Assembly (NCBI GenBank): GCA_963978545.1
Contig: OZ021722.1
Location: forward strand, 111,536,827 to 111,600,826
Direction: 5' to 3'
DNA from: Linyphia triangularis
Taxonomy: Eukaryota > Arthropoda > Arachnida > Araneae > Linyphiidae
DNA: 64,000 bases
The notes beneath the pieces were generated by a model. It did not search any database. It had not been told where the DNA came from and was given only the letters and a program-made list of their open reading frames with translations. Positions 3,275 to 57,281 of this stretch are shown here, piece after piece. Numbering within the stretch: the first letter of the stretch is position 1; each line of letters starts with the position of its first letter. Both the position numbers and the translations under genes were made by a program.

Positions 3275-3297
3275 CAAATCCCACTTCTGACACCAGT

Positions 3298-3604: not shown

Positions 3605-3607
3605 CGT

Positions 3608-5643: not shown

Positions 5644-5703
5644 ATTGCCTTCCCTCTTAAGGACTTCACTGCCCGGAACGTGCAGTCTTTAAGAAGGGGG
5701 AAA

Positions 5704-25541: not shown

Positions 25542-27028
25542 TCATTTTTTCATTTTCGTCAAGTACAGTTCACTAAAAATATCAACTGTTAAGTGGATAT
25601 GCTTCTTCAGCATTTTATTCCAGTCCTCCGAACCAATTATTTTGCTATGATTCGCAATTATGAAATCTTTGGTGGTCGATTTCAAATCCTGATCTTCATG
25701 AAAGTCAGAATGCACCAATATTTCACAAGCGTTGGAGGCACAAAGTCCCGCTCTCAAGATCGAACAGCTTGCGCGCTTCAACTCATCAATTGCAAATTTG
25801 TCGGCAGCAAAATACAGATTCATTGCACTTTCCCAATGCATGTTCTCTTCCATTCTGTTGAAATATACGAACAGCAACATCCTCTGGAGAGTGTCCGCGT
25901 CCACATCTGGAATCTCAGCGTCTTCCTTCACTTCAGTAGTAAACATGGCCCTGAACACTGGGGATCTGGCACTGAGGAGATTTTTATGAACAGGAAATTC
26001 TCTGCCACCAGCACGAAGGATCAAGTCACTGAGTATTCCCTCTTCATACATGCATTGCATGTCGTGCATGAATCGACTGCGGGACTCGTAGTCATACTGC
26101 ACATTATCAATTTTTGTTTCATCAACTACTTGGAAACAATGAATTTGATTATCATTGTTGCTATCTGCATCTCCAGTCCAAAAGAAGCACTCCACTTGCA
26201 TTGATAATATGCCCATTGGTAAATACAAGGTTTTATTGCTACATAGAAAACCTTTGTTTAGAAAAGATAAAAACGGCCAAATTTTTGGACTCCAAACTTT
26301 CCTCCTGGACTCAAAAGAATACCAGAAACTTTGACATTTAGATACTCTTCCTAAACTATCTATTAATGATACGTAACATACAAAATGAAGTCTCTGATAT
26401 TTCGTTGAACTGACGTCGATTTCGACTTCACCATTCTTTTCTACGACGTACTCGAATGTTAAAAACTGAGTTTTTGAATCAACTGTCTTCACATGCAAAC
26501 TTTTTCTCTGCTGAGGCTTTAGATGACAAAAATTATTGATTCTCCATACGAAACTGATTTTCTCGATTCTGGTTCGCGAAAAGCGTCTCCTGCTTCCGTA
26601 TTGAACTTCCTCCACAATCGACAGATAACGGTCAAAGTGTCAAAAGGTAAATAATCGATTTTTCTCGAAACAAACACCTCGCTTCTTTCAACAAAATGCT
26701 GGCATAACCAACTGTGACCTCTTCTAAATCCATGATTCTCAGTTTCCATCCATTTCAAAGTAGAACCCTTGTTGTCCACAATGGACAGATTGCAATCTAC
26801 AGTAATAATTTGTGTTCCATTATCCTCTGAACCACATCGTGTAAGATCCAAAGAAATATAACTATCGTCATCAGCAAGTGGATTTAAGTTAATTTTCCAT
26901 TCTGTATTATCTAGCGAATTTGACAAAAAGGCGGGACTCTTAATGACACCTTTCCAACCTACGTTTAGGTTTTCAATCGTCCAAACGAACGTTACACTAT
27001 CTCTTTCGACGTTACGTTTTCTCTTCAT
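25542..27028 (-). CDS. TDPOZ protein: double MATH, BTB, BACK-like (one frameshift)
   Basis: Likely a cullin-3 substrate adaptor of the SPOP/TDPOZ type: MATH domains bind targets and BTB binds CUL3. ATG at 27028; stop at 25542. MATH 1 (residues about 10-140) begins FVWTIENLNVGWKG. MATH 2 begins ISFVWRINNF and ends QVECFFW. BTB carries SDLILRAGGREFPVHKNLLS and RSPVFRAMF; a helical BACK-like tail follows. The two MATH halves are in different frames. The frame changes near 26550, in an A-rich stretch just before MATH 2, so a one-base indel splits a protein of about 490 residues. It is either a young pseudogene or an assembly error. There is no intron, as usual for spider TDPOZ copies. Both halves are otherwise open with all domain landmarks intact. 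This is the only likely host gene in the window. Confidence 0.82.
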
Positions 27029-30383: not shown

Positions 30384-30467
30384 CAGTTCTTTTTTCCCTT
30401 GGCTGAATCTCCACAGCTCTTGGCGCCTTGGCGAACTTTTTTTCTCCGGCAACCCTGCGTGGTTGTT
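30384..30467 (+). repeat. BEL 5' LTR, left piece (ends with the MULE target site)
   Basis: 84 bp identical to the start of the 3' LTR at about 45279. It ends with GTGGTTGTT (30459-30467), the first copy of the MULE target-site duplication. Confidence 0.9.
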
Positions 30468-32661
30468 ACTAGCGCTTAGTAAATACAGGATGAGAACGTG
30501 CAGAGCACAGTCTCATCCAATCAGAAGAGACCACTGATTACGTCATAAATTGGAGTGTTTAGCTGGCAGACCGGTAGGTGGCAGCACGAAAACTTTAATT
30601 TTTTAAGAAAATATTTCGTTAAACATTATAGAAGGGTTTATTTGAAATGCGTTGGCATAACTTTATTAAATAGTTGAAAAACTTCCGGTTTTTTTTATAC
30701 ATACCTTTAAATATATAGAGATGTTTTTCCGTAACTATTTCTCACCAGTTCAAAAATTTTAAGATGTCCTAATCAACAAACGTTTCTTAGTCTATAACTT
30801 ATGAACGATCATGGATACAAAAAAAAGTTGACCTTCAGTAAGCCGAATGTTGAAAACAAATAGATGTAGATTACAAAATAGTTTAACCAAGGATTACTAC
30901 AAAACTAAACTTGTAGCTTCAAGATAATATAACCAAAGAATTTTAAAGAAATTACAAGTGTTCTTGCCCCCCAATAGATTGGAACGATTCTTTAAAGTGT
31001 TATGGCCATTGTGTAGCCCAGAGTAAAAAAAAAAAATCCTATATACCCATAGATGATGAAATCAGCAGTGGTGTAGTTTAAGAGCAGAATTTCACTACCT
31101 TTTTACAATGACTAAAATCAGTCTCTTAATGTCAAAATTCCCAATAAAATTTTTAGAATTGTTGATAGCATTTCACTACCTTTTTATTTTACACCATTCC
31201 ACACAGGTTGAAATCTCATGAATTAGTCTAGAGTGAGTGTTCACACTAAATATTCCAAACTTAACTAAAACAAGTAATTGTAATAAAAATGTATAAAATT
31301 GCACATTAATTTAAAGACTAATAAAAACATCTTGGTTCTTCACAAAAGTATAACTAGTTTTTAACATTTATCACACAACCTGTTATACTTATTAATAATT
31401 TCAATATATGTAAGCGGAGAAAGCCTGTGTACCACTTATACCTATTAATTGAAAATTGCTTTAAAAGTATTTGTGTTAAAATAGTTTAAATTATAATTAC
31501 AGTGATTTGATACCACAATTCACAGGTACAAAAAGATAATTTTGTAACTTCCATCTCCCAATATATATTTAATGAATGACTAAAATACGCAGATACTAGA
31601 TAATCATTTGTTACCCGACATGTGAACTATTAACCTGTCAACTTTAATACATTTAACAAGCAAAACTTGTGTCACTAGAATACACATTAAAAAAAGAAAA
31701 CCGTGTTCATTTATAGGATCCAATTTTATTTCCTGTTGCACAGGAATTTGAATAAGATCTTAGTTCTAATCTCGGGTACATTTCAAAACTTCCAGACGGT
31801 ATCACATAAGTGATTACAGTTATAGAAAAACACATCAAGTAACACTTTTATTTTAAATAATGCAATAGAAAAAACTTTTCTTAAAAATACAAGTAATTGA
31901 CATTCAATGCATAATTACTGTTATACATAATTCAACGTGTACATGGGTACAATTAAAATACTTAGATCCCATATAAGAATAATGAAACATAATTTTAAAA
32001 AGATGCAGGAAAAAATATATGCCTATATTTTTAAGACGCGGAAAATCTGTTTACACGCATATCATTTGCCGAATACACACTACATCATTTCAGTTGTGTT
32101 ACAATACCTATCTGTAAGAAGAGTTATTACAAGATTACTCATTTTGAGAATCTTTAGATTGCTCAGAATCTTCGTTGTACACGCTACATCCACAAGAGCA
32201 CCATTCGATCTTTCTTCACATGGTAACTTAGAATTAGGTTTGAGGAATGGTCCGGGCTCCGAAGAGTACTCCTTACACCAGACCAAATGGGGCCTTACGC
32301 AAGGAGCTGGCTATCCGCCACCTGCCAACCCGCCCGGTGGCTGATCCCCACAGCCTCCAGTTTGTGCAAGCACATGCTGGCCCGGGTACATTATATTTAC
32401 ACATCAAAACAAGTTTTTAGCACTTAAAAAATCTGTTATTTTCTAAACATCAAAATATTTTCCCTTGCAATTGCTTTAGGTTTATAACAGAAATCTAATC
32501 ACAATAAGAAATCCAAAATATCAATCAAACTAACACAATATTTACTTTGTTTATACACAGCACATTTTCAAAAAAAAATCAAAGCATTTGTATGACAACT
32601 ATGTTAGAAATTGAAAAACAATTACTGAAGCACAATGAGAAATCCAAAATATCAATAAAAC
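30468..32661 (+). repeat. MULE left terminal inverted repeat (2194 bp)
   Basis: Inverse of 37480-39673, same length, with about seven single-base differences noticed by eye. It is mostly AT-rich, except for a GC-rich island at about 32190-32390 (mirrored at about 37750-37950). An open frame of up to 135 codons (31937-32344; first ATG at 31943) occurs in both repeats because they are copies of one another. It has no recognisable domain and I do not call it a gene. Confidence 0.92.
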
Positions 32662-33720
32662 AGTGAAACTAACACAATGTTTACACAAAACACATATTCA
32701 AATATGCATGTTCTAACAATTGCTTTAGGGTTTGAAAAACAGTTACTGAAGCACAATGAGAAATACAAAATATCAATGAAACTAATATAATGTTTACACA
32801 TTACTTAATAATCAAAACTTAACAAATACAAGTAATTGTAATTAAAATGTATAAAACTGCACGTTAATTTAATACAGCTGACTCAATAAAAACATCTTGG
32901 TTCTTCATAAAAGTTTAACCACCTTTTAACATTTATCACACAACCTGTTATACTTATTAATTAATAATTTCAGTATTTGTATTAAAACTGTTTAAATTAT
33001 AATTACAGTGATTTGATACCACAATTTAGAGGTACAAAAAGATCACTTTTAAGTTTTCATTGCGTAATATTTTTGTATCAGCTATTGGCTTTACAGTTAA
33101 AGTTAATTCAATAATTCAGGATTACAATTACTTAAAATACATATTATTTTTTTCATACAAATCATTAAAAACTAATCTAAATCCACAAAACTCCAAATAA
33201 CTTTCTGTGAAAAACAATTTTAACAATAGGAAAAAATATTTCGCTTAAACTAGTATTTCTAACCCTAACTTTATTTGACAAAGAAGCTCTAACTGTAACT
33301 TTAGTTGGTTTTCATTTCGAAACCAAAACCCACAAACTTTAAAGGTTTTAGTTTGCAATTTCTAGTACCGGATGCTGTACCAAGTACTACCACAAAGTAA
33401 GTACCTTACTTCTTATACTTTGTTCCTAGAAGTTTAGCGTGACTTGAAAACTTGCGATTTTTTTTGCGATCTTCGTCAGTTTCTTTGAACGTCAGTTTGT
33501 TGGTTCCTTGATTGTTTTTCTAATTTTCTTTATTAATTATTGTTCATTAATTTATTATTAGCTTCGTAAACATTTTTTTGTTTTTTCTCTTTATAAATTC
33601 ATTTTCTGATTCGTCACCCAAAGTTGTTTAGTAGTTTGGATTTGTTGGACTACTGTTTGCTTATGTATGTATAGAGTAATTTTATTTATATCTATATGAG
33701 AATAGTTTTGTTAATTTATC
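32662..33720. other. MULE interior upstream of transposase
   Basis: Contains further subterminal repeat units (about 32662-32790) and a diverged direct copy (about 32805-33055) of a stretch of the left TIR (about 31250-31545), with a deletion of roughly 60 bp. The last 600 bp before the ATG should hold the transposase promoter. It is AT-rich, and no single TATA box stands out. Confidence 0.6.
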
Positions 33721-36192
33721 ATGGATAAAAAGTTATTTAAGTGTGACTTGTGTGAAAAAAATTTCACTCGCTGCTCAAGTTTAAAAAGACATTTGAGAAC
33801 TCTTCATCCTTTTGCATCTCATTCTCAGTTTAATGAAAAGAGAAGTTTGGCAGTATCCTCAACACCTAGGGCATCTTGTGTATGTGATGTGTGTGGAAAA
33901 GTATTTTGCCGCCCTGTCCGTGTTCTTCAGCACAAAAAAAATGTGCACAAAATTCTGATTAGCCATGAAAAGTCACAACCTTTAGTGACCAAGGGCCCTA
34001 AAGCTAACTTAAAGATGCCTTACAAATGTTCCGAATGTGATAGCTCATTTTCCACAAAAAGGACCTTTTCAAGTCGTTTTTCTATGAACCATCCAGAAAT
34101 ACAGATTGAGACCATAGTCATGTGCTTTGCAAACCACAACCAGTTCATAAAGTGGAAATTATTAACAGAAAAGAAAACAGCCTCTTCTTACATATTGAGA
34201 AACAGATACAAGACAAAGATGGCTGTTATTCATAGTTATGCATGCAATCGCAGTGGAGAATTTAAATCTCTAAGCAAGGGAAAACGGCACATAAAATTGA
34301 AAGGCTCTATTAAGAGTGGTTCTTTTTGCCCTGCAAGAATGCTCTATGAAGTGCCGTTAGGTGAAGAGGTTATTACCGTAAGGTTCATCTCTACACATGT
34401 CGGACATCAATGCGAGTATGGCCGATTAAGATTACCAAAGGCTGACAAGGATGAAATTGCTGGGCAGCTTCTCTCTGGTATTCCAAAGCAAAATATTTTG
34501 CTCAATATATCGGAAAATGTTCTGGACCCAAGTAGACTTGCATTAACACGAATGCAGGACCTTCGGAATATTGCTACTTCTTATGGGGTTAATTCCTTGG
34601 AGCAAAGAAATGCTAATGATGTCCTGTCAGTAGAAAGTTGGGTGATGGAAATGCGCAACAGCGAATCGTCTCCAATTTTAATATACAAGCTTCCTGGAGA
34701 AGTAGATAAGAAATTCAGTGCCCTGTTAGAAGGTGATTTTGTCCTCGGTTTCATGAATGATGCACAGCTGGAGATCTTCAAAATATATGGCCAAGACATA
34801 ATATCCATGGATTCCACTCATGGAACCAATATGTATGACATTCAACTGTCTAGCATTGTCGTAAAAGACAATAACTGGGAAGGATTCCCCGTTGCATTTC
34901 TTTGGTCTAACAGGCAAACTGAGGATGTATATCGGTACTTCTTTGAAGCTATCAAAGAAAGGCTCGGCAGTATACCAGCACGAACATTCATGTCCGATGA
35001 CTTTCCGGCATTTTATAATGCATGGCATTCTGTGTTTGGTCCATGCCAGTTTCATCTAATTTGTGATTGGCATGTAAAACGTGCATGGAGTAAGAATCTA
35101 AATACTGGAGCACATCTTGTTGTAGATCTGGAAAAGCGACAACAGCTATTAAATGTGTTGTACATGATTATTAATGAAGTTGACGAAATCACTTTCCAAC
35201 AATTATTAATGAGTGCAGAGAAGGAATTTTCTTCTGATGCTGATACTGCCAGCTTTTGGAAATATTTGTCTGATAATTACCTACACAGAATTAACCAATG
35301 GGCAGCATGTCGTCGGCTTGAAGCTAATATTAATACAAATATGTCCATCGAAAGATGGCATAAAGATTTAAAGTACAACTCTGATTTAAAGGGTAAATGC
35401 GGTAACAGGTTGGATAAAGCGATTCACAGTTTGATGAAATCTTTGAAAATGAAACTGATGAATCGCTTATCTTCTCTTAGTCGAGGAAAAGTTACCAAAA
35501 AAATCAGTATTTTAAGAAAAGCACACAAGCTTGCTGAAGAAACGGATATTGTTGTTTATCAAGAAGAAGAAGGAGTTTGGATTGTGCCATCATTCACAAA
35601 CATTGGCTTGATTTACAAAGTGCGATGCATACAATTGGATCCATCCCACAGTTGTACAATATTGTGTTGCAAGTGCAATATGTGCATCCATCAAATGCGT
35701 TGCAATTGCCCAGAGTCTGCTATCCGTTACAATTTTTGTAAACATATACATTCTGTATGTTTAAAGCAAATGGCAAATCAATATCCAATAATGGAAAATA
35801 CTACAGGCAATTTGGAAATAGTTTGTAATTCTCAAACTGATAACCAGTTCAAAGAGAAATCGGCTATTGAATCTGAGCTACAGAGAGTTGGCACATCCTC
35901 TATGAATGCTGAAGCCAAAAAGGAAGCTCTGGGTATTTTGGCTTTACTTGAGACCAATACTAACTTTGATGAATGTAAACTAATATTACATACTTTGAAA
36001 ACACTCAAAGGCAACATACAAGCATTGAGAACTAACAAGCCATCTTTACCCCCAGTTATTCAAAGAAATCCCTCAAATAAAAACATTCAACAGCAACGAG
36101 TCTTTCCAGCTAAGAAAAAGAGGTCCAAGAAGATAAAAATGATGCCCCAATGCAGCCAAAAGGATGTTCTTGCAGTGATTTTAAAGAAATAA
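33721..36192 (+). CDS. MULE transposase with C2H2, FAR1-like, DDE and SWIM domains
   Basis: 823 codons, ATG to TAA, uninterrupted. It should bind the TIRs and catalyse DDE cut-and-paste in the nucleus. Residues 8-29: C2H2 finger (CDLCEKNF ... HLRTLH). About 55-77: second finger (CDVCGKVF ... HKKNVH). About 103-125: degenerate third finger (CSECDSSF, first His replaced by Arg). About 165-240: zinc domain of FAR1/WRKY-GCM1 type (YACNRSGEFKS, SFCPAR, THVGH). MULE core: Asp364 in ISMDSTHG, Asp426/427 in FMSDDFPAFYNAW, then HLICDWHVKRAW, and Glu544 in NMSIERWHKDLK, which fits the catalytic Glu. SWIM finger about 650-675 (RCNCPESA ... CKHIHS). A basic tail (KKKRSKKIK) may act in nuclear import. It is the only gene in the element and lies between its TIRs. 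An uninterrupted frame with all catalytic motifs argues that it is functional. Confidence 0.93.
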   Translation: MDKKLFKCDLCEKNFTRCSSLKRHLRTLHPFASHSQFNEKRSLAVSSTPRASCVCDVCGKVFCRPVRVLQHKKNVHKILISHEKSQPLVTKGPKANLKMPYKCSECDSSFSTKRTFSSRFSMNHPEIQIETIVMCFANHNQFIKWKLLTEKKTASSYILRNRYKTKMAVIHSYACNRSGEFKSLSKGKRHIKLKGSIKSGSFCPARMLYEVPLGEEVITVRFISTHVGHQCEYGRLRLPKADKDEIAGQLLSGIPKQNILLNISENVLDPSRLALTRMQDLRNIATSYGVNSLEQRNANDVLSVESWVMEMRNSESSPILIYKLPGEVDKKFSALLEGDFVLGFMNDAQLEIFKIYGQDIISMDSTHGTNMYDIQLSSIVVKDNNWEGFPVAFLWSNRQTEDVYRYFFEAIKERLGSIPARTFMSDDFPAFYNAWHSVFGPCQFHLICDWHVKRAWSKNLNTGAHLVVDLEKRQQLLNVLYMIINEVDEITFQQLLMSAEKEFSSDADTASFWKYLSDNYLHRINQWAACRRLEANINTNMSIERWHKDLKYNSDLKGKCGNRLDKAIHSLMKSLKMKLMNRLSSLSRGKVTKKISILRKAHKLAEETDIVVYQEEEGVWIVPSFTNIGLIYKVRCIQLDPSHSCTILCCKCNMCIHQMRCNCPESAIRYNFCKHIHSVCLKQMANQYPIMENTTGNLEIVCNSQTDNQFKEKSAIESELQRVGTSSMNAEAKKEALGILALLETNTNFDECKLILHTLKTLKGNIQALRTNKPSLPPVIQRNPSNKNIQQQRVFPAKKKRSKKIKMMPQCSQKDVLAVILKK

Positions 36193-36850
36193 CCTAAATA
36201 TATTCAGTGAGTATATTTAATGCAGTCTTGTACCTATCTAATTTTAAGTAATTTTTTTATTCTTTAAAATTCTAGTTAAGCCCTGTATACTAGTGCTTAC
36301 TGTGCAAATGAGTTACATTACTATAAAAATGTTAGGAAAACAAATTTGAGGTCACTATTTGATAAAGCCGAGAAATATTGCTCGATTAACGTAGTGCATT
36401 TGTACTGCTGAAAATTTATCAAAAATTACTTGTCAAAGATTCATATCTTTCAAGCATTCTTGTTTACTTCATTTTATGTTTTATTTTAATGAAATATCAA
36501 CAGCTCAAAGCACACTGCTTGCAGTTTCTATAATCTTTCTTCTTTGCTAAAGAAAACTCTTTGTGGTAATGATATGATCTTTCTAATAACATTTTGTTCT
36601 AATGTTGCTACTAATTTCTTTGTTTCCATTTATTTTGTAGGTTCAGTTTCAAGATGCAACTCCATATCAGTAAGATTTTAACTAGCTAAAAACATTCGAT
36701 GTAGGACTGTTAGTGCTATCTTTGAAAAATTGTATTGTTTGAACATAGGCCTGGTATTTAATTTTCCTCTGAAATATTTTTTGTGTTTGTGTATTGTTGT
36801 ACAATCAAGTAGTAGTATAAGACTCAATATGTAGGAGACAAAAAGTTAAT
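36193..36850. other. MULE transposase 3' region
   Basis: AT-rich, no second ORF of note. No perfect AATAAA was seen near the stop. It leads into the subterminal tandem repeats. Confidence 0.45.
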
Positions 36851-37640
36851 TTTATTGTTTTATTGATATTTTGAATTTCTCATTGGGCTTCAGTAACTGT
36901 TATTCAAACCCTAAAGATGTTGTTCTAACATATATATTTGAATATGTGTTTTGTGTAAACATTGTATTAGTTTTATTGATATTTTGGATTTCTCATTGTG
37001 CTTCAGTAACTGTTATTCAAACCCTAAAGATGTTGTTATAACATATATATTTGAATATGTGTTTTGTGTAAACATTGTATTAGTTTCATTGTTTTATTGA
37101 TATTTTGGATTTCTCATTGTGCTTCAGTAACTGTTTTTTAAATCCTTAGTTGTTGTCCTTCGAATTCTTTGATTTTTTGAAAATGTGCCATGTGTAAACA
37201 AGGTAAATTATATTATCGATATTGGTTTTATTGATATTTTGGATTTCTCATTGTGCTTCAGTAACTGTTATTCAAACCCTAAAGATGTTGTTATAACATA
37301 TATATTTGAATATGTGTTTTGTGTAAACATTGTATTAGTTTCATTGTTTTATTGATATTTTGGATTTCTCATTGTGCTTCAGTAACTGTTTTTTAAATCC
37401 TTAGTTGTTGTCCTTCGGATTCTTTGATTTTTTGAAAATGTGCTATGTGTAAACAAGGTAAATTATATTATTGATATTGGTTTTATTGATATTTTGGATT
37501 TCTCATTGTGCTTCAGTAATTGTTTTTCAATTTCTAACATAGTTGTCATACAAATGCTTTGATTTTTTTTTGAAAATGTGCTGTGTATAAACAAAGTAAA
37601 TATTGTGTTAGTTTGATTGATATTTTGGATTTCTTATTGT
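36851..37640 (+). repeat. MULE right subterminal tandem repeats
   Basis: About seven units of roughly 110-135 bp, each starting near TTTTATTGATATTTTGGATT then TCTCATTGTGCTTCAGTAA. Starts are near 36860, 36972, 37092, 37224, 37348, 37481 and 37616. The last two lie in the right TIR. The left end has only about three inverted units (about 32500-32800), so the array is asymmetric. Repeats next to the TIR are plausible transposase-binding or promoter sequences, but this is inference. Confidence 0.82.
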
Positions 37641-39673
37641 GATTAGATTTCTGTTATAAACCTAAAGCAATTGCAAGGGAAAATATTTTGATGTTTAGAA
37701 AATAACAGATGTTTTAAGTGCTAAAAACTTGTTTTGATGTGTAAATATAATGTACCCGGGCCAGCATGTGCTTGCACAAACTGGAGGCTGTGGGGATCAG
37801 CCACCGGGCGGGTTAGCAGGTGGCGGATAGCCAGCTCCTTGCGTAAGGCCCCATTTGGTCTGGTGTAAGGAGTACTCTTCGGAGCCCGGACCATTCCTCA
37901 AACCTAATTCTAAGTTACCATATGAAGAAAGATCGAATGGTGCTCTTGTGGATGTAGCGTGTACAACGAAGATTCTGAGCAATCTAAAGATTCTCAAAAT
38001 GAGTAGTCTTGTAATAACTCTTCTTACAGATAGGTATTGTAACACAACTGAAATGATGTAGTGTGTATTCGGCAAATGATATGCGTGTAAACAGATTTTC
38101 CGCGTCTTAAAAATGTAGGCATATATTTTTTCCTGCATCTTTTTAAAATTATGTTTCATTATTCTTATATGGGATCTAAGTATTTTAATTGTACCCATGT
38201 ACACCTTGAATTATGTATAACAGTAATTATGCATTGAATGTCAATTACTTGTATTTTTAAGAAAAGTTTTTCCTATTGCATTATTTAAAATAAAAGTGTT
38301 ACTTGATGTGTTTTTCTATAACTGTAATCACTTATGTGATACCGTCTGGAAGTTTTGAAATGTACCCGAGATTAGAACTAAGATCTTATTCAAATTCCTG
38401 TGCAACAGGAAATAAAATTGGATCCTATAAATGAACACGGTTTTCTTTTTTTAATGTGTATTCTAGTGACACAAGTTTTGCTTGTTAAATGTATTAAAGT
38501 TGACAGGTTAATAGTTCACATGTCGGGTAACAAATGATTATCTAGTATCTGCGTATTTTAGTCATTCATTAAATATATATTGGGAGATGGAAGTTACAAA
38601 ATTATCTTTTTGTACCTGTGAATTGTGGTATCAAATCACTGTAATTATAATTTAAACTATTTTAACACAAATACTTTTAAAGCAATTTTCAATTAATAGG
38701 TATAAGTGGTACACAGGCTTTCTCCGCTTACATATATTGAAATTATTAATAAGTATAACAGGTTGTGTGATAAATGTTAAAAACTAGTTATACTTTTGTG
38801 AAGAACCAAGATGTTTTTATTAGTCTTTAAATTAATGTGCAATTTTATACATTTTTATTACAATTACTTGTTTTAGTTAAGTTTGGAATATTTAGTGTGA
38901 ACACTCACTCTAGACTAATTCATGAGATTTCAACCTGTGTGGAATGGTGTAAAATAAAAAGGTAGTGAAATGCTATCAACAATTCTAAAAATTTTATTGG
39001 GAATTTTGACATTAAGAGACTGATTTTAGTCATTGTAAAAAGGTAGTGAAATTCTGCTCTTAAACTACACCACTGCTGATTTCATCATCTATGGGTATAT
39101 AGGATTTTTTTTTTTTACTCTGGGCTACACAATGGCCATAACACTTTAAAGAATCGTTCCAATCTATTGGGGGGCAAGAACACTTGTAATTTCTTTAAAA
39201 TTCTTTGGTTATATTATCTTGAAGCTACAAGTTTAGTTTTGTAGTAATCCTTGGTTAAACTATTTTGTAATCTACATCTATTTGTTTTCAACATTCGGCT
39301 TACTGAAGGTCAACTTTTTTTTGTATCCATGATCGTTCATAAGTTATAGACTAAGAAACGTTTGTTGATTAGGACATCTTAAAATTTTTGAACTGGTGAG
39401 AAATAGTTACGGAAAAACATCTCTATATATTTAAAGGTATGTATAAAAAAAACCGGAAGTTTTTCAACTATTTAATAAAGTTATGCCAACGCATTTCAAA
39501 TAAACCCTTCTATAATGTTTAACGAAATATTTTCTTAAAAAATTAAAGTTTTCGTGCTGCCACCTACCGGTCTGCCAGCTAAACACTCCAATTTATGACG
39601 TAATCAGTGGTCTCTTCTGATTGGATGAGACTGTGCTCTGCACGTTCTCATCCTGTATTTACTAAGCGCTAGT
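37480..39673 (-). repeat. MULE right terminal inverted repeat (2194 bp)
   Basis: Inverse of 30468-32661. The outermost several hundred bases look identical between the two. Seen differences lie near the GC-rich island and include CATATG versus CACATG at the position mirroring 32221. Equal length means no indels have accumulated. Confidence 0.92.
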
Positions 39674-39682
39674 GTGGTTGTT

Positions 39683-39815
39683 CTTGAAACTGCAGTCTTC
39701 TATTTTTAGAAGCGCTTTGTATTGACACTAGCCAAACTATGGCTCGTCATTTAGTAATTAAAAAATTAAATAATGAATACAGTCCACAATTATTTTAACT
39801 TAACTCGCTAAAACA
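39683..39815 (+). repeat. BEL 5' LTR, right piece
   Basis: Continues the LTR after the second GTGGTTGTT (39674-39682). It runs from CTTGAAACTGC to GCTAAAACA, identical to the 3' LTR. The internal leader follows (TTTTGGTCACCGCGC, a candidate primer-binding site). Confidence 0.9.
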
Positions 39816-39904
39816 TTTTGGTCACCGCGCACATTCGGAGTCACCCGCGAAATTCTGAATTTATTTATTTTTAACTTTAACAACCGAAACTATTTTTTTT
39901 TAAT

Positions 39905-40945
39905 ATGACGAATTTGGTCGTTCTACATCGCCGACGCGGCAATGTCAAGGGTCAGCTGACTAAGCTGTCCAAGGCTATGGAGGATGTCGAGTCTGTCGAC
40001 AATGAAATGTTATTGGCTCATCAAGACCAGCTCAACAAACTTGAGAAGAAATTTGAAGATTTAAAGATGGATTACTACGCATCAACACCCGAAGGTGAAT
40101 TCGATACTACTGAGAAATCATTGACGGATATAGACGATGAAATCCGGGCTTTGGAGGTAAGAATCTCTACCTCTTTAAATAAATTAAGAAAAACAAATAT
40201 TGATAAAACTTCTGAAAACAAAACTGACTGTTCGAAAACTTTGGTTGACGACCATTCGCAGTCAGCCAATGTGGTTTCGAAACTGAAACTACCGGAAATT
40301 CCTCTTCCCATTTTTAGCGGGAAAATTGAAGAATACACGTTTTTCAAAGCGCAGTTTGTCAATTTAATTGACCAAAATCCGTCCCTCTCGGACATGGATA
40401 AGATATATTATTTGCGCGGTGCGCTACGTGGCGACTCTAAATGTATTGAAACTATGGATGATTCTTATGGGTCGTTATTAGAAGCACTGGATAAGAGATA
40501 TGAAAATAAACGTTTAGTTATAGATACGCATATTCGATGCATATTAAATCTTGAACCGATGAAACATGAGTCAGAAAGGGAGCTCAGAAACTTGGTTGAT
40601 TGCGTCAAACGAAATCTAAGAGCACTTTCAGTTTTGAAATTTGAGAGGGATAAACTGTCGAATGCATTACTTTTGAATGTGTTGTTAAGCAAATTGGATA
40701 GAGACACTAGAAAAAATTACGAAGCTTCATTAACCACTAACGATGTCCCCAATTTTGATGACTTTATTTTGTTTATTGAAAGAAGAATTTCAATACTTGG
40801 TAGCATTGCCAGAAATTCCAAACCAAACACGCTTGAAAGGTCTAAAACATTTTTTGTAAAATCTAACAAAAATTCTAAAGACTGCCCTTTATGTCACCAG
40901 CCTCATCCACTTTATTTATGCACAAAATTCAAGGAAATGAAATAA
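39905..40945 (+). CDS. BEL/Pao gag, ended by an in-frame TAA
   Basis: 346 codons from ATG. The N-terminal third is charged and helical. Residues about 125-290 match the DUF1759-type Gag region of Pao elements (LPEIPLPIFSGKIEEYTFFK, YYLRGALRGDSK). A Cys/His motif follows (CPLCHQPHPLYLC). TAA at 40943-40945 then stops the frame in the middle of the zinc-binding region, because downstream codons in the same frame continue FCKQHKVCMKCLSHKY. In this family gag and pol normally share one frame. The stop is therefore a nonsense mutation or, less likely, a readthrough site. It encodes the structural protein that packages the RNA in cytoplasmic particles. Confidence 0.88.
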   Translation: MTNLVVLHRRRGNVKGQLTKLSKAMEDVESVDNEMLLAHQDQLNKLEKKFEDLKMDYYASTPEGEFDTTEKSLTDIDDEIRALEVRISTSLNKLRKTNIDKTSENKTDCSKTLVDDHSQSANVVSKLKLPEIPLPIFSGKIEEYTFFKAQFVNLIDQNPSLSDMDKIYYLRGALRGDSKCIETMDDSYGSLLEALDKRYENKRLVIDTHIRCILNLEPMKHESERELRNLVDCVKRNLRALSVLKFERDKLSNALLLNVLLSKLDRDTRKNYEASLTTNDVPNFDDFILFIERRISILGSIARNSKPNTLERSKTFFVKSNKNSKDCPLCHQPHPLYLCTKFKEMK

Positions 40946-43900
40946 GAGAATCGTTTTGATTTCTGCAAACAGCATAAAGTGTGCATGAAATGTTTGTCCC
41001 ACAAATATGACAAAAATATATATTGCCAGTCAAAAGGCACATGTAAAGCTTGTTCTCGTGCCACTCACCACACTTTGCTACACAAGTTCTCAGCACAAGC
41101 TGAAAGCAATAATTTAACAGAAACTTATTCACCCACTACACAAGCTGAATTTCAAACGCCAATTTCAGATCAACCAAATATGAATGATCATTTAGTGTCA
41201 GACACTCAATTATCCTTTTTTGCAAAGGGTGAGAAAAACGTCCTTATCAATACAGCTGTCTGTTACATTAAGAATTCTAAAGGTCAACGTATTGCCGTCC
41301 GCGCGATCCTTGACTCAGCTAGTGAATCCAGCTTTCTTTCTGCTGATGCTGCCCAATTTCTGGGTTTGAAAAAAGAAAAAACTGACGTCCCCATTTGTGG
41401 TTTAAACGATAAACCATTTCGTGTAGTTTCTCAAGTTTCTGCCAATATTTCGAATCAGGATAATAACTGTCACTGGAACTTAAAACTTCTCATTGTACCC
41501 AAAATAGCAAACGCCATGCCGTTTAGAAACTTAAATATTTCAAACTTAAACATCCCTAAGAATATTGTTTTGGCTGATCCTAAGTTCTTTTTGGCTCAAA
41601 AGGTTGATTTATTATTAGGTGCCGAACTTTTCTACGATTCATTAAGGGAAGGCAAAATTAAATTGACTGAAAACCTATTCCTGCAGCCAAGTTGTTTTGG
41701 TTACTTAGTGTCAGGAAGTGTTCAACATGATAGCCCTTTCTCCGTTAATCTCTGTTTTCTTGCTACTACCCTGGAATCTCTCAATAAAACCTTGACTTCG
41801 TTTTGGGAAACTGAGAACTCCCTTGATGACAATAACATTTGCGACAGCGACGAACTGAAATACTGTAACGATCATTTCCAAAACACTCATTCCCGTAAAC
41901 CCGATGGGAGATATGTAGTCGAGTTGCCATTTAAACCAGGTATGTCGGAAGACTTGCTGGGCGGCTCAAAACAGATGGCATCTAAAAGGTTAGATCGCTT
42001 ATGGAATAGGCTAGAAACTGACCCCATCATGAAGGCACTCTATTCTGAATTTTTAAATGAATACGAAGCTTTGGGTCATATGGTACAGGTACCAGAAGAT
42101 GCTTACTTCGAAGATGGTTATTATTTACCCCATCATGGTATCTTAAAACCAACAAGTCAAACCACAAAGTTGAGGGTAGTATTTGACGCAAGTGCCAAAA
42201 CTACAAGTAAATATTCTTTGAATGATCTACTTTCTAAGGGTGGAGTTATACAAGATGATTTGTTTTCTATACTCATACGATTTAGAAAACACACCTACGC
42301 CTTCACTTCAGATGTGAAACAAATGTTCAGACAAGTTGAAGTAGCTCCCTCCCAAACTAAGTTCCAAAAGATTCTTTGGAAAGAGAGTAAGTCCGCTCCT
42401 ATTAAGACTTACCAGCTTAAAACGGTGACATATGGCACTGCCAGCGCACCTTTTCTTGCCACAAGAGTCTTAAAACAAATTGCATTAGATGAGAAGGATG
42501 ATTTTCCTCTCGCTTCAAGTGTTGTCCTACAGGACTTTTACATGGATGACTGTCTGTCGGGCTCTTCCGACCCACACGAGTTCGAAACACTTCAAACAGA
42601 ACTGACACATCTCCTTCAAAGAGGAGGTATGACCCTACACAAATGGCAATCCAACAAAGGACACACAAGTGACCCTATTTTTCCTTTCGATAGGAACTCG
42701 GATGAAATTACAGTTAAAACTTTAGGTCTATTATGGAACAGTTCTAATGACTTATTTACCTATAAGATATCCTTTAATTCAAATTCTACCATAACGAAAA
42801 GAGAAGTTCTGTCCCAAATTTCCAGAATATTTGATCCCCTTGGCCTCCTCGGCCCAGTTATTACAAGGGCAAAAAATTTTATGCAACAGCTGTGGCTTCA
42901 CAAGTTGGACTGGGATCAACCACTCCCTTCAGAACTTGCAGTACAGTGGCAGAATTTCGTAGAGACTTTACCACAAATACAACATATTAAGGTGCCCCGT
43001 TGTGTCCTGCCCCTTTATTTCACATCAATTTCCTTGGTAGGATTTGCGGACGCGTCTTCAAAAGCGTATGGATGCTGCGTGTATATACACACCATCACGG
43101 ATACTGGTAATCGCTCCAGTCGCCTTCTGTGCAGCAAAAGTCGTGTATCTTCCCTTCGGACCCCATTGACAATCCCTCGAGCAGAATTGTCCGCTTGCCT
43201 TCTGCTCTCCAAGCTCGTGCAGAAGGTTATTCAAGCCTTCAAGCACAAATTTGATTGTGTGCAGCTCTTCTCCGACTCCACGATTGCCCTGGCATGGATT
43301 AGGACCTCCCCACATCTTCTGAAGACCTTCACGAGCAACAGGGTTGCTCAGATACAGCAGCTAACCTCAGACTTCCAATGGCTGCACATCACCTCCTCAT
43401 CTAATCCTGCAGACTCTATTTCCAGAGGGCTGGATGCTCCAGCTTTGTCCTCCAATGAGCTATGGTGGAATGGACCGGAGATGCCCCCCTGTCCGGAACC
43501 TGCTGTCCATCACCCTACAGAGCAGCAATTCCTTGAAGAGCTTAAGGTTCCCCCAAAGATGACCCTCTCATCTTACAGTATATCCTTTTTTGATTCTTTA
43601 ATTGAAAGATCTAATAACTATTGTAAACTGATTAGAATACTTGCATATGTGTTCAGATTTTTTAATAATTGTCATAAAAATAATATTCAACGCCAGACTG
43701 GCCCTCTCACAAGAGAGGAATTTGAAGATGCTGAAATGGTCTTAATTAAGAACCTTCAGTTGGAGCATTTTCTACCAGAGCTTGCTTCTCTAAAGAAGGG
43801 AAATTCAGTTCCAGTAAAAAGCAAACTACGTTTCTTACACCCTTATTTAGATAGTCATGATGTAATCAGAGTGGGTGGACGTTTAGATAATTCGGATGTA

Positions 43901-45094
43901 AGCTTTAACCATAAACATCCCACAGTTTTGCCCTCGGGTTCTAAATTAGTAAAACTAATTTTCCAATTCTATCATAAGCGCGACTTTCATGTCGGACCAC
44001 AGGCCTTATTAAACACAATTCGTCAGAAATATTGGCCACTTGGTGGTAGAAATACAGCTAGGAAAGTTGTTTATGAATGTGTACCATGTTTTAAGATGAA
44101 ACCAATTGTTGCAAGCCAGCTTATGGGAGATCTTCCCACTGAAAGAGTTGTCAGTAACCCCCCGTTTTCTAATGTTGGAATTGACTTGTGCAGCCCCTTT
44201 CAAATTAAATATAAGGGCCAAAGAAAGGGCACATTGCAAAAGATTTATGTTGCAATATTTGTTTGTATGGCCACTAAGGCTGTGCATTTAGAATTTATTT
44301 CTGACTTAACATCTCAAGCCTTAATTGCAACCTTAAAAAGGTTCTTCTCTCGTAGGGGTAAAAGCTATAAAATATTTAGTGATAACGGGACGAACCTAAC
44401 AGGAGCTAGTGCAGAATTAAAAAGGTTACAGAAATTGTTTGTTAATAGTGAAGAAGTTGTAAATTTTTTGAATTCAGAGCGAATTGATTGGAAGTTTATT
44501 CCTCCCAGAGGTCCGAATCACGGTGGGCTCTGGAAGGCTGGGGTTAAATCATTCAAGTACCACCTTAAAAGAGTAGTCGGTGACTCAAAATTAACTTTGG
44601 AGGAGTTTAATACCATAATGATACAAATCGAGGGCATCCTGAACTCACGCCCATTAACTCCTTTATCCATTGATACCGACGACTTTCAGGTATTAACTCC
44701 TGGACATTTTTTAATAGGTAGACCAATCAATTCTCTTCCGGAGCCAAATTTGATTGATAAAAATGAAAACTTATTGAATAAATGGGAAAGGCTTCAAAAA
44801 ATGGTACAGTCAGTTTGGAAATTTTGGAGAAACAACTATTTAAGTCACTTGCAACAACGCAGTAAATGGTTGTTCAAAAAACAAAATGTTAAAAAGGGAA
44901 TGATGGTGATTCTTAAGGACTCAAACCTACCTGTTGGAAAATGGCCATTGGCCAGAATCATAAATGTCATTCCAGGAGCTGACAACAATGTTAGAGTTGT
45001 TGATCTAAAGACGCCTACTGGGCAATTTAGAAGAGCTATTACAAAAATTTGCATTTTGCCTATAAGTGATAATACTGCTGCACCTGCCCTTTAA
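40946..45094 (+). CDS. BEL/Pao pol polyprotein (protease, RT, RNase H, integrase)
   Basis: Same frame as gag, open for about 1380 codons to TAA at 45092-45094. Order from 40979: the end of the Gag zinc region (CMKCLSHKY, CKACSRATHH); a DUF1758-type aspartic protease (AILDSASESSFLS, about residue 112); reverse transcriptase of the Pao type with KLRVVFDASAK and YMDDCLSGSS (about residue 520); Peptidase_A17-associated region; RNase H (VGFADASSKAYG, about 687); integrase with HHCC finger (YECVPCFK), Asp in VGIDLCSPF (about 1066), Asp in FSDNGTNL and the Glu region WKAGVKSFKYHLKR; and a DUF5641-type tail (WPLARIINVIPG). No frameshift was found. With identical LTRs this is a nearly intact young element, disabled by the gag stop and the LTR insertion. 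Confidence 0.93.
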   Translation, partial: ENRFDFCKQHKVCMKCLSHKYDKNIYCQSKGTCKACSRATHHTLLHKFSAQAESNNLTETYSPTTQAEFQTPISDQPNMNDHLVSDTQLSFFAKGEKNVLINTAVCYIKNSKGQRIAVRAILDSASESSFLSADAAQFLGLKKEKTDVPICGLNDKPFRVVSQVSANISNQDNNCHWNLKLLIVPKIANAMPFRNLNISNLNIPKNIVLADPKFFLAQKVDLLLGAELFYDSLREGKIKLTENLFLQPSCFGYLVSGSVQHDSPFSVNLCFLATTLESLNKTLTSFWETENSLDDNNICDSDELKYCNDHFQNTHSRKPDGRYVVELPFKPGMSEDLLGGSKQMASKRLDRLWNRLETDPIMKALYSEFLNEYEALGHMVQVPEDAYFEDGYYLPHHGILKPTSQTTKLRVVFDASAKTTSKYSLNDLLSKGGVIQDDLFSILIRFRKHTYAFTSDVKQMFRQVEVAPSQTKFQKILWKESKSAPIKTYQLKTVTYGTASAPFLATRVLKQIALDEKDDFPLASSVVLQDFYMDDCLSGSSDPHEFETLQTELTHLLQRGGMTLHKWQSNKGHTSDPIFPFDRNSDEITVKTLGLLWNSSNDLFTYKISFNSNSTITKREVLSQISRIFDPLGLLGPVITRAKNFMQQLWLHKLDWDQPLPSELAVQWQNFVETLPQIQHIKVPRCVLPLYFTSISLVGFADASSKAYGCCVYIHTITDTGNRSSRLLCSKSRVSSLRTPLTIPRAELSACLLLSKLVQKVIQAFKHKFDCVQLFSDSTIALAWIRTSPHLLKTFTSNRVAQIQQLTSDFQWLHITSSSNPADSISRGLDAPALSSNELWWNGPEMPPCPEPAVHHPTEQQFLEELKVPPKMTLSSYSISFFDSLIERSNNYCKLIRILAYVFRFFNNCHKNNIQRQTGPLTREEFEDAEMVLIKNLQLEHFLPELASLKKGNSVPVKSKLRFLHPYLDSHDVIRVGGRLDNSDVSFNHKHPTVLPSGSKLVKLIFQFYHKRDFHVGPQALLNTIRQKYWPLGGRNTARKVVYECVPCFKMKPIVASQLMGDLPTERVVSNPPFSNVGIDLCSPFQIKYKGQRKGTLQKIYVAIFVCMATKAVHLEFISDLTSQALIATLKRFFSRRGKSYKIFSDNGTNLTGASAELKRLQKLFVNSEEVVNFLNSERIDWKFIPPRGPNHGGLWKAGVKSFKYHLKRVVGDSKLTLEEFNTIMIQIEGILNSRPLTPLSIDTDDFQVLTPGHFLIGRPINSLPEPNLIDKNENLLNKWERLQKMVQSVWKFWRNNYLSHLQQRSKWLFKKQNVKKGMMVILKDSNLPVGKWPLARIINVIPGADNNVRVVDLKTPTGQFRRAITKICILPISDNTAAPAL

Positions 45095-45276
45095 TTGTCT
45101 TTTATTAAACTTTATTTTCTATTTTGTTTAAAGAAATTTTTTGTATTTTTGCTTACTAGTTTTATATTAGTTGTATTTACTCTTTGTATCATTGCATATA
45201 CCTTATGTATATATTATTTCAAAAAAATTGTATTTTCCTTGAAATATCTCTATATTTCAACGCCCGCCGGGATTTC

Positions 45277-45495
45277 TGCAGTTCTTTTTTCCCTTGGCTG
45301 AATCTCCACAGCTCTTGGCGCCTTGGCGAACTTTTTTTCTCCGGCAACCCTGCGTGGTTGTTCTTGAAACTGCAGTCTTCTATTTTTAGAAGCGCTTTGT
45401 ATTGACACTAGCCAAACTATGGCTCGTCATTTAGTAATTAAAAAATTAAATAATGAATACAGTCCACAATTATTTTAACTTAACTCGCTAAAACA
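45277..45495 (+). repeat. BEL 3' LTR, intact
   Basis: 217 bp (from CAGTTC at 45279) identical to the two-piece 5' LTR. It provides the empty site CCTGCGTGGTTGTTCTTGAA for the MULE insertion. It ends GCTAAAACA before ATTATTTACAC flank. Confidence 0.9.
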
Positions 45496-54120: not shown

Positions 54121-57100
54121 CGTGCAGGAAAACTAGAGAGGCCGTCACTCGCGCAAGTGGGTGACGGCAAGGCTGAGGTGCTACGTTTGTACTTGGCGGA
54201 CAAGTCAACAGCGTCACAGTATCTCACAGACACAGGTGCCGATGTTTCAGTGGTACCACCCTCTGTCTTTGAGAAAAGCCGATCTCCTGCCAAGCTCCAG
54301 TTGTTCGCGGCGAACGGTACAACAATTCCCACTTTCGGTCAGAGACTCTTACAGTTGGATTTAGGATTGCGACGTGCATTTCACTGGCCGTTCATCATCG
54401 CCTCAGTGTCCCATCCAATCATCGGGGCTGACTTCTTGAGACATTTTGGACTGCTGGTTGACATCCGACAGTGTTGCTTGATTGACCCTCTCACCCAGCT
54501 ACGATCAAATGGCAAGGTTATTGTCAAGGAATCTCCCGGAGTAAAATCAATCTGGGGTGAAACCAAGTTTCATTCCTGCTCTCCAGGTTTCCTTCCCTCA
54601 TTGAGGCCGGACCCACACCACGCCAGGTCAAGCACGGGATACAACATCACATTCCAACAAGTGGACCCCCTGTGTTCGCGCGACCAAGAAGACTTCCACC
54701 TGACAAACTCAAAGCTGCCAAGAGGGAGTTCGAGTACCTAGTGGCATCTGGCGTCTGCAGGCCTTCAAGCAGTTGCTGGTCCTCTCCCCTGCACATGGTC
54801 ACAAAGAGCAACGGAGATTGGCGTCCGTGTGGAGATTTCCGCAAGCTAAACAGCATTTCGGTTCCAGACCGGTATCCAGTTCCACATATTCAGGACTGCC
54901 TGCAGGTGCTGGAAGGTAAGAAGCTGTTCTCCACCATCGACCTGGAAAAAGCTTATCACCAGATACCAGTCGCAGAGGAAGACATCAAGAAAACAGCTGT
55001 AACAACTCCATTTGGACTGTTCGAATTTCTTTTCATGCCCTTCGGATTGTCAAATGCAGCTGCAACCTTCCAGCGATTTATTCACCATGTGTTGCAAGGT
55101 CTCGACTTCTGCGTTCCGTATTTCGACGACGTCCTTGTGGCTTCAGAAGATGAGGAACAACACCTTGAGCATCTTCAACAAATTTTCAAACGCTTTGAAC
55201 AATATGGTGTTCGGTTGAATGCTTCTAAGTGTGTTTTTGGCCATACCGAAGTAAAATTTCTGGGACATATGGTGACTCCCAAAGGCATTACTCCACTGCC
55301 AGAAAGAGTGACAGCAATCACCAACTTCCCAAAACCAGAGACTGTAAAAGAAATGCGTCGATTTCTGGCCATAAGCAATTTTTACAGACGGTTTGTTTCC
55401 AATGCAGCTTCAACTCAAGCACCGCTGAACGCATACCTGAAGGGTGCCAAAAAGAATGACAAACGGCCCATTGTCTGGACTGAGGAAACTTCTATTGCCT
55501 TCGATAGATGCAAGAAGGATTTAGCAGAGGCCACTGTCTTGCACCACCCATCCTCGCAAGCCACACTGGCAATAGTGGTTGATGCATCAGATTCTGCAAT
55601 GGGAGCCGCACTGCATCAGCATGTAGAACAGGGTTGGCAGCCGCTTGCATTCTACTCGAAAACTCTCTCACCAGCACAAAAAAAGTACTCTGCATATGAT
55701 AGGGAACTGCTAGCTGCCTACATGGCAATTAAATACTTTCGACATATGGTGGAAGTTCGAAGTTTTATCCTCTTCACCGACCACAAGCCCATCACTTATG
55801 CATTCTGCCAGAAGGAAGACAAATGCTCACCGAGACAGCTGCGACAGTTAGACTATATCAGCCAATTCACCACAGATATCCGACATCTCAAGGGTACCGA
55901 CAACTCAGTAGCTGATGCCCTGTCCCGAATAAATATCTCCATAATCAGCACACCATCACTTATCAACTTCCAACAGATGGCTGCAGAACAGCTTACTGAT
56001 GTGGAATTGCAGAGGATTTTGTCATCCCCAAATACAACGTCCCTAGGGTTACAGCCATTGTCTATTGGCCAACCAGCAGTTACTCTCTACTGTGACATTT
56101 CGACAAAATGCATTCGTCCTTTTGTGCCAGAACTATTTCGTCGAGAGGTGTTCAATAATCTTCACTCCCTTTCTCATCCAGGTGTTCGAGCATCAGTGAA
56201 ACTGATTGGAGAAAGATACGTCTGGCCATCAATGAATGCAGACATCTCATCATGGGCACGCACATGCCTGCAGTGTCAACAATCCAAGGTGTCAAGACAT
56301 ACCAGAAACACAGTTGGCAGTATTGTTCCACCCAGTGCAAGGTTCGAGCATGTCCACATCGACCTGGTAGGCCCCCTTCCTCCATCGGAAGGTTTTCGCT
56401 ATTGTCTCACATGTGTTGACAGATTTTCGAAATGGCCAGAAGCTTTTCCTTTGGTGGACATCACAGCAGACACAGTTGCCAAAGCTTTCTACAGTGGTTG
56501 GGTTTCTCGCTTCGGCACCCCACTCAGGTTGACAACTGACCAGGGGACACAATTTGAGTCTTCTTTACATGATGCACTGACCAAGTTCCTGGGAACAGCT
56601 CGTCAAAGAACAACACCTTACCACCCGGCATCAAACGGCCTTGTTGAGAGATTTCATCGACAGTTAAAGGCGGCAATCATGGCCCACGGAAACCCTCAGT
56701 GGACAGCAGTTCTGCCGACAATCCTTTTGGGTTTCAGAGCTGCATGGAAGGAAGATCTACAGGCTACTACAGCCGAGATGGTATATGGTTCAACTATCCG
56801 CATTCCTGGAGAATTCCTATGCCCCTCATCAAGTGTTCCTGACCCAACTACATTTGTGGGGAAGATGCGAGAGGCAATGAGTAAGCTACTCCCTCCAAAT
56901 CCCCAGCTACATGGCAAACAGTCAGTTTTCATCAGCAAAGATCTGCCTACATGCAGTCACGTTTTTTTGAGAACGGATGCAGTGAAGAAAAGTCTGCAAC
57001 CACCTTATGAAGGCCCTTTTGAAGTTGTCAGTCGGGGTGAGAGATTCTTCAAAATTCGAAGGGGCACCAAGGAGACGACAGTAAATATAGAACGTCTCAA

Positions 57101-57281
57101 GCCAGCCTACATAGCAAAGGAAGCTGACAGAAAGGCACTACCTGCAACAGATGCATCTACACCTACAACTAGCTCTCAAACAGAACCAGCATTGCCCCAG
57201 CAAGAAGCTCCAAATCCGGTCCTGGTAACGAGGACTACTCGATCAGGAAGAAGGGTGAAATTCAACAGCAGATACCTTTAA
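54115..57281 (+). pseudogene. Gypsy-3 pol: protease, RT, RNase H, integrase (one frameshift)
   Basis: The protease segment (about 54115-54560) carries YLTDTGADVSVVPP and IIGADFLRHFGLLVD. The frame changes between about 54545 and 54590. From there to TAA 57279-57281 it is open for about 890 codons. RT has FARPRRLPPDKLK, SSPLHMVTKSNGDWRPCGDF and the YFDD box at 55119-55130. RNase H has VVDASDSAMGAAL and FTDHKPITYAF. Integrase has an HHCC finger (HSLSHPGVRAS ... CLQCQQSK), Asp in HIDLVGPLPP, Asp in LTTDQGTQF, Glu in NGLVERFHRQ and a GPFEVVSRGERFFKI module. No stop codon lies inside the long RT-integrase stretch. It would be a functional enzyme set apart from the upstream shift. Confidence 0.9.

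Follow-up and report, generated by a model that had tools for sequence, protein, structure and literature searches.

Mutator-like elements (MULEs) have been described in several studies of arthropods. Dupeyron et al. (2019) recognized the arthropod MULE clades Ghost and Spectre, with terminal inverted repeats (TIRs) of 14–500 bp according to the text and up to 640 bp according to a table (PMC6446971). Chen et al. (2026) reported 322 MULE types in 222 of 4268 arthropods, with complete elements of 1875–9972 bp and transposases of 313–1136 amino acids; the TIRs were mostly 20–95 bp, with a range of 13–1193 bp in the text and the total row and up to 1527 bp in the Hemiptera row (PMC13359780). In view of these studies and of work on an active mosquito MULE, arthropod MULEs can no longer be regarded as poorly documented, contrary to a remark in an initial annotation of the DNA analyzed here (PMC6446971, PMC13359780, PMC5225508). 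Here, we analyzed 64,000 nucleotides of the genome of the spider Linyphia triangularis (GCA_963978545.1, contig OZ021722.1, positions 111,536,827 to 111,600,826; this whole stretch is called the window), which contain a MULE of the same superfamily with TIRs of 2194 bp. This length exceeds the figures quoted above from the arthropod MULE surveys, and we call it the longest only against those surveys. A young arthropod MULE as such is not new; the TIR length and the evidence of conversion between the two arms are. We consider it highly probable that the element is a recently mobile cut-and-paste Mutator-like transposon whose TIRs have grown by arm copying, and whose copy in the window, copy A, probably lacks full transposase function.

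By its description, Spectre resembles the window MULE in having arthropod hosts including spiders, a C2H2 finger together with a MULE transposase, and intact TIRs (PMC6446971). The combination of C2H2 fingers and MULE transposase was found in the window protein (fingers 1 and 2, with finger 3 altered in copy A). However, the TIRs of the only complete Spectre measure 74 bp (76 bp in the table) and its target-site duplication (TSD) 8 bp, against 2194 bp and 9 bp in the window MULE (PMC6446971). Closer to the 8-bp TSD and the TIR of about 75 bp is a second MULE family of the same genome (loci L048 and L049), whose TIR is 53 bp long and whose TSD in L048 is 8 bp. Ghost has aphid and spider hosts, and SWIM is given as its zinc-finger type; in the account that defined it, neither a complete element nor TIRs for the arthropod members were recovered (PMC6446971). 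In yeast, transposition has been demonstrated for Muta1, an animal MULE from Aedes aegypti. This active Phantom/Muta1 type shares with the window MULE a TSD of 8–9 bp, a long TIR with subterminal tandem repeats, and a DDE triad with essential H and W, and Muta1 has a FLYWCH finger, a transposase of 504 amino acids in two exons, a 145-bp TIR, and a length of 3.2 kb (PMC5225508). In contrast, the window MULE has C2H2 fingers and a SWIM-like motif, 823 amino acids in one exon, a 2194-bp TIR, and a length of 9.2 kb.

Drosophilid FB elements can carry kilobase TIRs. Galileo, of the P superfamily in Drosophila mojavensis, has long TIRs whose growth involves tandem repeats and recruited internal sequence, and recombination has been proposed. 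It differs from the window MULE in its transposase superfamily, its 7-bp TSD, and TIRs that reach about 1.26 kb, and the longest of its TIRs were, according to that study, absent from all nearly complete copies (PMC3573991). In root-knot nematodes, Tm1 Mutator/Foldback combines Foldback-like TIRs, whose expansion is discussed, with a Mutator transposase and a 9-bp TSD; it differs in a Phantom-type transposase of 496 amino acids, a length of 2.6 kb, and TIRs that consist largely of 13–15 bp repeats (PMC3169594).

The MULE in the window has the following parts:

30459..30467, + strand: left TSD, GTGGTTGTT
30468..39673, + strand: whole MULE, copy A of five, 9206 bp, delimited by TIRs, TSD, and the same ends in four other copies
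30468..32661, + strand: left TIR, 2194 bp
30468..30545, + strand: terminal 78 bp with ACGTCA at its inner end, the putative ancestral TIR, judged from the shorter end of MITE-like relics and from the sister lineage L045, which stops at a similar ACGTC (both described below)
33721..36192, + strand: transposase gene, 823 codons, intron not needed
33742..33807, + strand: C2H2 finger 1, amino acids 8–29
33883..33948, + strand: C2H2 finger 2, amino acids 55–76
34027..34092, + strand: C2H2 finger 3, amino acids 103–124; residue 119 is Arg in copy A only (one of five copies)
34798..35079, + strand: MULE DDE core, amino acids 360–453, with D364, D426, and C448-x2-H451; E544 lies downstream
35701..35745, + strand: SWIM-like CxCx9CxH motif, amino acids 661–675, assigned by pattern, with no match to the SWIM profile
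36852..37681, + strand: tandem array, seven copies of a 76-nt unit at a spacing of 113–134 bp, from the 3′ region into the right TIR
37480..39673, − strand: right TIR, 2194 bp, seven mismatches against the left
39674..39682, + strand: right TSD, GTGGTTGTT

The inverted repeats were, as the initial annotation had described them, of equal length and nearly identical: the two arms of copy A aligned over 2194 bp with no gaps at 99.68% identity. Their mismatches were confined to TIR positions 1402–1963, and the outer 1401 bp showed no difference. The 9-bp TSD was likewise confirmed as perfect on both flanks, and the 823-codon open reading frame as uninterrupted. TIRs are often long in the MULE superfamily, and those of the window MULE are no exception. 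The inner TIR border falls within the tandem array of the 76-nt unit, on the right side of copy A; this overlap may or may not amount to the internal tandem repeats that, with very long TIRs, mark Foldback-type elements, and the tandem-repeat search gave a second row outside the TIRs. Short matches (68–94%) to the inner TIR were found on contigs C1, C2, C3, C5, C8, C9, C10, C12, C14, and C15, many of them to TIR 1774–1906 (about window 32240–32373), a stretch recurring on several contigs that is possibly a dispersed repeat. A frame of 135 amino acids is present inside each TIR of copy A, which we do not count as a second gene.

Copies of the element were counted by searching the genome (1.35 Gb in 369 contigs) for its exact 20-base end, with the reversed sequence as a control. 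The end occurred 11 times (6 forward and 5 reverse) versus 0 and 0 for the control, so the TIR ends are not due to chance. Ten of the 11 ends paired into five elements on three contigs:

C1:111567294-111576499: copy A (window), 9206 bp
C1:76353647-76364829: copy B, 11183 bp
C2:199779-211044: copy C, 11266 bp
C10:33431426-33440975: copy D, 9550 bp
C10:70644729-70654707: copy E, 9979 bp

The genome search for such ends with flanking 9-bp duplications, proposed in the initial annotation, thus returned five copies, and the 9-bp TSD, within the 8–11 bp of MULEs, was perfect in A, C, D, and E. Nested inserts or expanded DNA account for the size differences. In copy B, the terminal 30 bp are interrupted by about 1.74 kb of inserted DNA whose ends look hAT-like by eye, and the transposase gene contains a 239-bp insert; copy E has a 777-bp nested insert, with Helitron-like ends by eye. 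In C and D, the internal tandem array is expanded, and D has a 43-bp duplication in each arm. In the ten pairwise comparisons of the core (2195–6300 of copy A, from the left TIR to the array), divergence was 0.07–0.46%, lowest between A and E (3/4106) and highest between B and C (19/4105). The full frame of 823 amino acids was found in A, D, and E. In copy C, a 13-base insertion shifts the frame, which then stops after 747 codons; that of copy B, read from the start codon, ends after 28 codons at the 239-bp insert, and B has a further cluster of changes including a one-base insertion. Amino-acid differences, which may or may not matter for function, were T48P in D and K72T in E, the latter common to B. 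Since coding differences among the copies are few, we make no claim about selection. The idea that the five copies represent one locus assembled repeatedly was rejected, as flanks, TSDs, and private inserts differ. An exact 31-bp solo end of the family lies at L044:5001-5031 (C10:1995491), perhaps the trace of a failed excision repair. The idea that it belongs to a small element with two ends was not supported: no second end with at most 3 mismatches in 20 bases was found in its 10-kb locus, and the 9-mer flanking it occurred once.

The site of copy A gives the order of events. Two further features are needed here:

30384..45495, + strand: BEL/Pao retrotransposon hosting the MULE in its 5′ long terminal repeat (LTR); not part of the MULE
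45279..45495, + strand: 3′ LTR of the BEL/Pao element with the empty target site (GTGGTTGTT once, 45354–45362)

Copy A sits in a direct repeat whose intact second copy is the 3′ LTR. On the left of the MULE 84 bp, and on its right the first 142 bp (TSD included), were 100% identical to this second repeat, corresponding to 217 distinct bases, and extension of the right-side match to 145 bp lowered the identity to 99%. The repeats enclose frames for Pao retrotransposon peptidase, reverse transcriptase, and DUF1759 domains and are therefore the two LTRs of a BEL/Pao element, which are identical over the 217 bp; the gag- and pol-like frames are long and open. By eye, the BEL/Pao element itself showed no target duplication. 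Both LTRs of a retrotransposon are copied from one template at insertion. In the 3′ LTR, GTGGTTGTT stands single and uninterrupted; because the MULE is in one LTR only, it arrived after the BEL/Pao insertion, and the insertion of copy A is younger than its host element. Five copies with so little core divergence, together with the empty site in the sister LTR, indicate that the MULE family has been recently mobile.

In the alignment of the ten arm sequences, from which the nested inserts of B and E were excluded, copy D alone carried, in both arms, the identical 43-bp duplication at 1354 and a shared base at 1513, and in copy C alone the two arms shared a base at position 359. Of the seven differences between the left and right arms of copy A, six (1402, 1469, 1559, 1668, 1752, and 1963) were kept at 6/6 positions in E and 5/6 in B. 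In copy C, the left arm was of the right-arm type at the outer three of these six positions, and in copy D, both arms agreed at all six. The seventh difference of copy A, at 1859, was private to that copy. The simplest account of these patterns is that the arms of one copy convert each other, with the right arm as donor in copy C. Homogenization is thus supported by sequence comparison of the copies, whereas its direction and repair route are proposals.

Relatives of the family point to how the TIRs may have grown. The degraded sister lineage L045 encodes a transposase with 60% amino-acid identity to that of the window and ends on the right with the same ACTAGCGCTT as the MULE family. Its inverted end similarity spans 88 bp from the right end and stops at ACGTC, with no inverted match between its ends beyond these 88 bp. 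At five relic loci with six junctions, pieces 71–88% similar to the TIR fuse TIR 516–532 to positions 76–78 of the other end; the junctions lie at ACGTCA, as expected of a derivative resembling a miniature inverted-repeat transposable element (MITE). No target duplication was seen at the C15 relic, the only one with both flanks read. Neither L045 nor L048 matched TIR 533–2194, and the same was true of the three relics that were tested (C15, C5, and C12). The sister lineage and the relics suggest an ancestral TIR of about 78–88 bp. On the right side, two degraded relics on C10 hold inner-arm or array sequence 3′ of the gene (2001–2309 in L050, partly shared with the array, and 1560–2329 in L051), and neither holds inner-arm sequence 5′ of the gene, this side being truncated in L051 and unmatched in L050. 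In L051 (4713–8838, C10:73.39 Mb), TIR 1669–1811 has turned into a minisatellite of 31 units of 133 bp beside a degraded transposase. We propose that the right arm was copied over the left with the border in the tandem array, a 25- to 28-fold growth.

The second MULE family shows 35% amino-acid identity to the window transposase, and its two loci are 99.7% identical over 5.7 kb. The family (L048 at C4:54.36 Mb and L049 at C10:43.11 Mb) gave five rows with open frames of 608 amino acids and is also probably recent. L046 (C1:20.50 Mb) and L047 (C9:83.84 Mb) show 100% identity across 6770 bp, up to where L046 ends, and have an open MULE-like frame of 749 amino acids; their ends or TSD could not be set. 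Besides the five copies, transposase relatives of at least 50% identity, among the 55 of 594 candidates that were scored, fell by our grouping into eight loci, all on C10. This contig makes up 6.8% of the genome and is possibly a sex chromosome or a low-recombination chromosome.

The Pfam scan of the window protein returned eight matches at E ≤ 10 (matches above about 0.1 are mostly removed by HMMER's filters). The MULE profile PF10551 matched at E = 3e-12 (47.3 bits vs. a cut-off of 27.6) and was matched by 20/20 members of the alignment, bearing out the MULE identity and DDE core that had been proposed; the ZSWIM1-3 RNase H-like domain matched at 6.2e-07. With sister copies nearly identical and the core matching PF10551, neither of the two outcomes named in the initial annotation as contradicting it, namely all other copies being old and degraded with this one absent from reads and a core failing to match MULE profiles, occurred. 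Nineteen relatives were found by protein search at E ≤ 1e-3, with 22–51% identity over the alignment and 52% in the best local alignment. D364 and D426 were present in 19/19 homologs and E544 in 18/18 covering the position, as were C448 and H451 (C-x2-H) in 19/19 and W527 in 17 of the 18 covering it. The spacing of these residues resembles that of D214, D283, H307, W401, and E419 of Muta1, all reported as necessary (PMC5225508). In an AlphaFold2 model (mean predicted local distance difference test score 75.1 and predicted template modeling score 0.56, with ten-residue means of the former of 78–96 over residues 351–460), D364 lies in strand 360–365, D426 just past strand 422–425, and E544 in helix 540–553; this modeled order is RNase H-like, as a DDE enzyme would be expected to show. 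Sequence search against solved structures gave 35 matches to E = 1, the best at 0.0028, comprising zinc-finger proteins and one unrelated enzyme but no transposase. Among viral contigs, ten pattern matches were obtained, none encoding a relative. As to the SWIM finger claimed earlier, a CxCx9CxH motif was indeed found at the C-terminus, with a pattern of that type in 16/19 homologs, but no SWIM profile was among the eight matches of the window protein or among the best 25 of the 28 families for the 20 alignment members. The FLYWCH profile, expected of the Phantom/Muta type, was also absent from the eight matches.

Fingers 1 and 2 are canonical C2H2 fingers. The ligand positions of finger 3 are C103, C106, residue 119, and H124, and residue 119, where the first His of the finger is expected, is Arg in copy A, whereas it is His in B, C, D, and E and in 11/11 homologs covering the position. 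Arg119 is a private change of copy A that likely weakens or abolishes the third finger, and copy A has probably lost full transposase function and would not be fully autonomous. Because a predicted zinc ligand is replaced, the claim that copy A holds everything needed for autonomous movement was not upheld. The description of the element as complete and probably active holds for its structure and for the recent movement of the family, but is too generous for copy A. From their sequences, D and E, with the full frame and His119, are better candidates for an autonomous source.

The process we favor is as follows. The transposase, with N-terminal C2H2 fingers, an RNase H-like DDE core, and a C-terminal SWIM-like knuckle, would bind the ends of the TIRs, cut the element out, and reinsert it at a target cleaved with a 9-bp stagger. 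The TIR would have grown from about 78–88 bp to 2194 bp when one end (probably the right) was copied over the other, and later conversion between the arms would help keep them nearly identical. Structure and recent movement are read directly from the copies, and the transposition chemistry is proposed by analogy with the superfamily. To a fuller form, in which a ratchet drives TIR length in this lineage, a short TIR of about 78–88 bp being lengthened by arm-copying repair with borders in a tandem array while conversion still homogenizes individual copies, we give an even chance. Several observations weigh against these proposals. The TSD of copy B matches at 7/9 bases; there are just five full copies, two of them (B and C) with a broken frame; and copy A carries Arg119 in place of a predicted zinc ligand. 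On conversion, 13 substitutions affect a single arm of a single copy (79, 131, 262, 339, 421, 973, 1235, 1415, 1739, 1847, 1858, 1859, and 1967) versus two private to both arms of one copy, so conversion is incomplete; the extra base that D alone carries at 558 in both arms is in an A-run, could have arisen twice by slippage, and counts for little; and assembly collapse of the arms may be the source of shared-arm variants. On growth, the left end of L045 has lost its outermost bases to erosion and its gene contains one stop; the right-to-left polarity rests on the two degraded relics L050 and L051, whose left sides are unmatched or lost; and an old relic at C1:3072863-3073565 carries pieces of TIR 606–1547 in order at 68–75%, with no gene seen in that search, and inner-arm sequence is therefore older than the MULE family on at least one end.

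These observations bear on four other explanations. The family may be dead or nearly so, the product of a small recent burst with all copies now immobile and copy A an inactivated insertion. The low copy number, the broken frames of B and C, the lost finger-3 ligand of A, the nested inserts or expansions in B, C, D, and E, and the substitutions T48P and K72T would fit such a state; the full frame and His119 of D and E and the near-identity of the A and E cores speak against it, and we regard it as possible but doubtful. Unlikely in our judgment is the proposal that long TIRs are ancestral and were secondarily lost in the sister lineage and the relics, leaving short ones. Because of their internal deletions, the relics give no record of the full TIR of their parent, L045 is degraded, and the C1 relic and L051 carry inner-arm sequence; however, the ends of L045 lack an inverted match past 88 bp, TIR 533–2194 is unmatched in L045, L048, and the three relics tested, and the sister TIR and the shorter end of the relics both stop at ACGTC(A). 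Near-identical TIRs could also reflect very recent descent from one symmetric founder, with no ongoing conversion, as the youth of all copies and the 13 one-arm substitutions that have not spread to the other arm would allow. The copy-private variants in both arms (the 43-bp duplication and 1513 in D, and 359 in C) and the mosaic of left/right-specific variants in C and D make this quite improbable. Finally, the match to the ZSWIM1-3 RNase H-like profile would also be expected of a domesticated ZSWIM-like host gene within a coincidental inverted repeat, a reading refuted by the multi-copy structure, in which five copies with TIRs and TSDs lie at different sites, one of them in a retrotransposon LTR.

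Other features were recognized elsewhere in the window. An intact single-exon BTB/POZ (TDPOZ-like) frame lies at 25545–26615 on the minus strand; it has 22 relatives, of which 19 have a source name (18 spiders and one poppy), with a best named identity of 33%. Pieces of a P-element-type transposase (PF12017, with PF21787 just below the cut-off) occur at 10536–12748, and Gypsy-type retrotransposon frames with RNase H and integrase at 3635–5587 and 54672–57281, the second including reverse transcriptase.

The family shows that an open frame and near-perfect TIRs are no proof of the competence of a given copy. Judged from its sequences, it is a candidate for a recently active MULE in a spider. 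The ends of DNA transposons range from tens of bases to kilobases, and this one genome holds both states, a degraded sister lineage with about 88 bp and a young family with 2194 bp, together with private mutations present in both arms, so that TIR growth and inter-arm conversion can be followed. If lengthening by arm-copying repair with continued conversion is true, it would explain the repeated appearance of foldback-like ends in unrelated transposons, and individual copies would allow the process to be measured in a recently active MULE whose transposase genes are intact.

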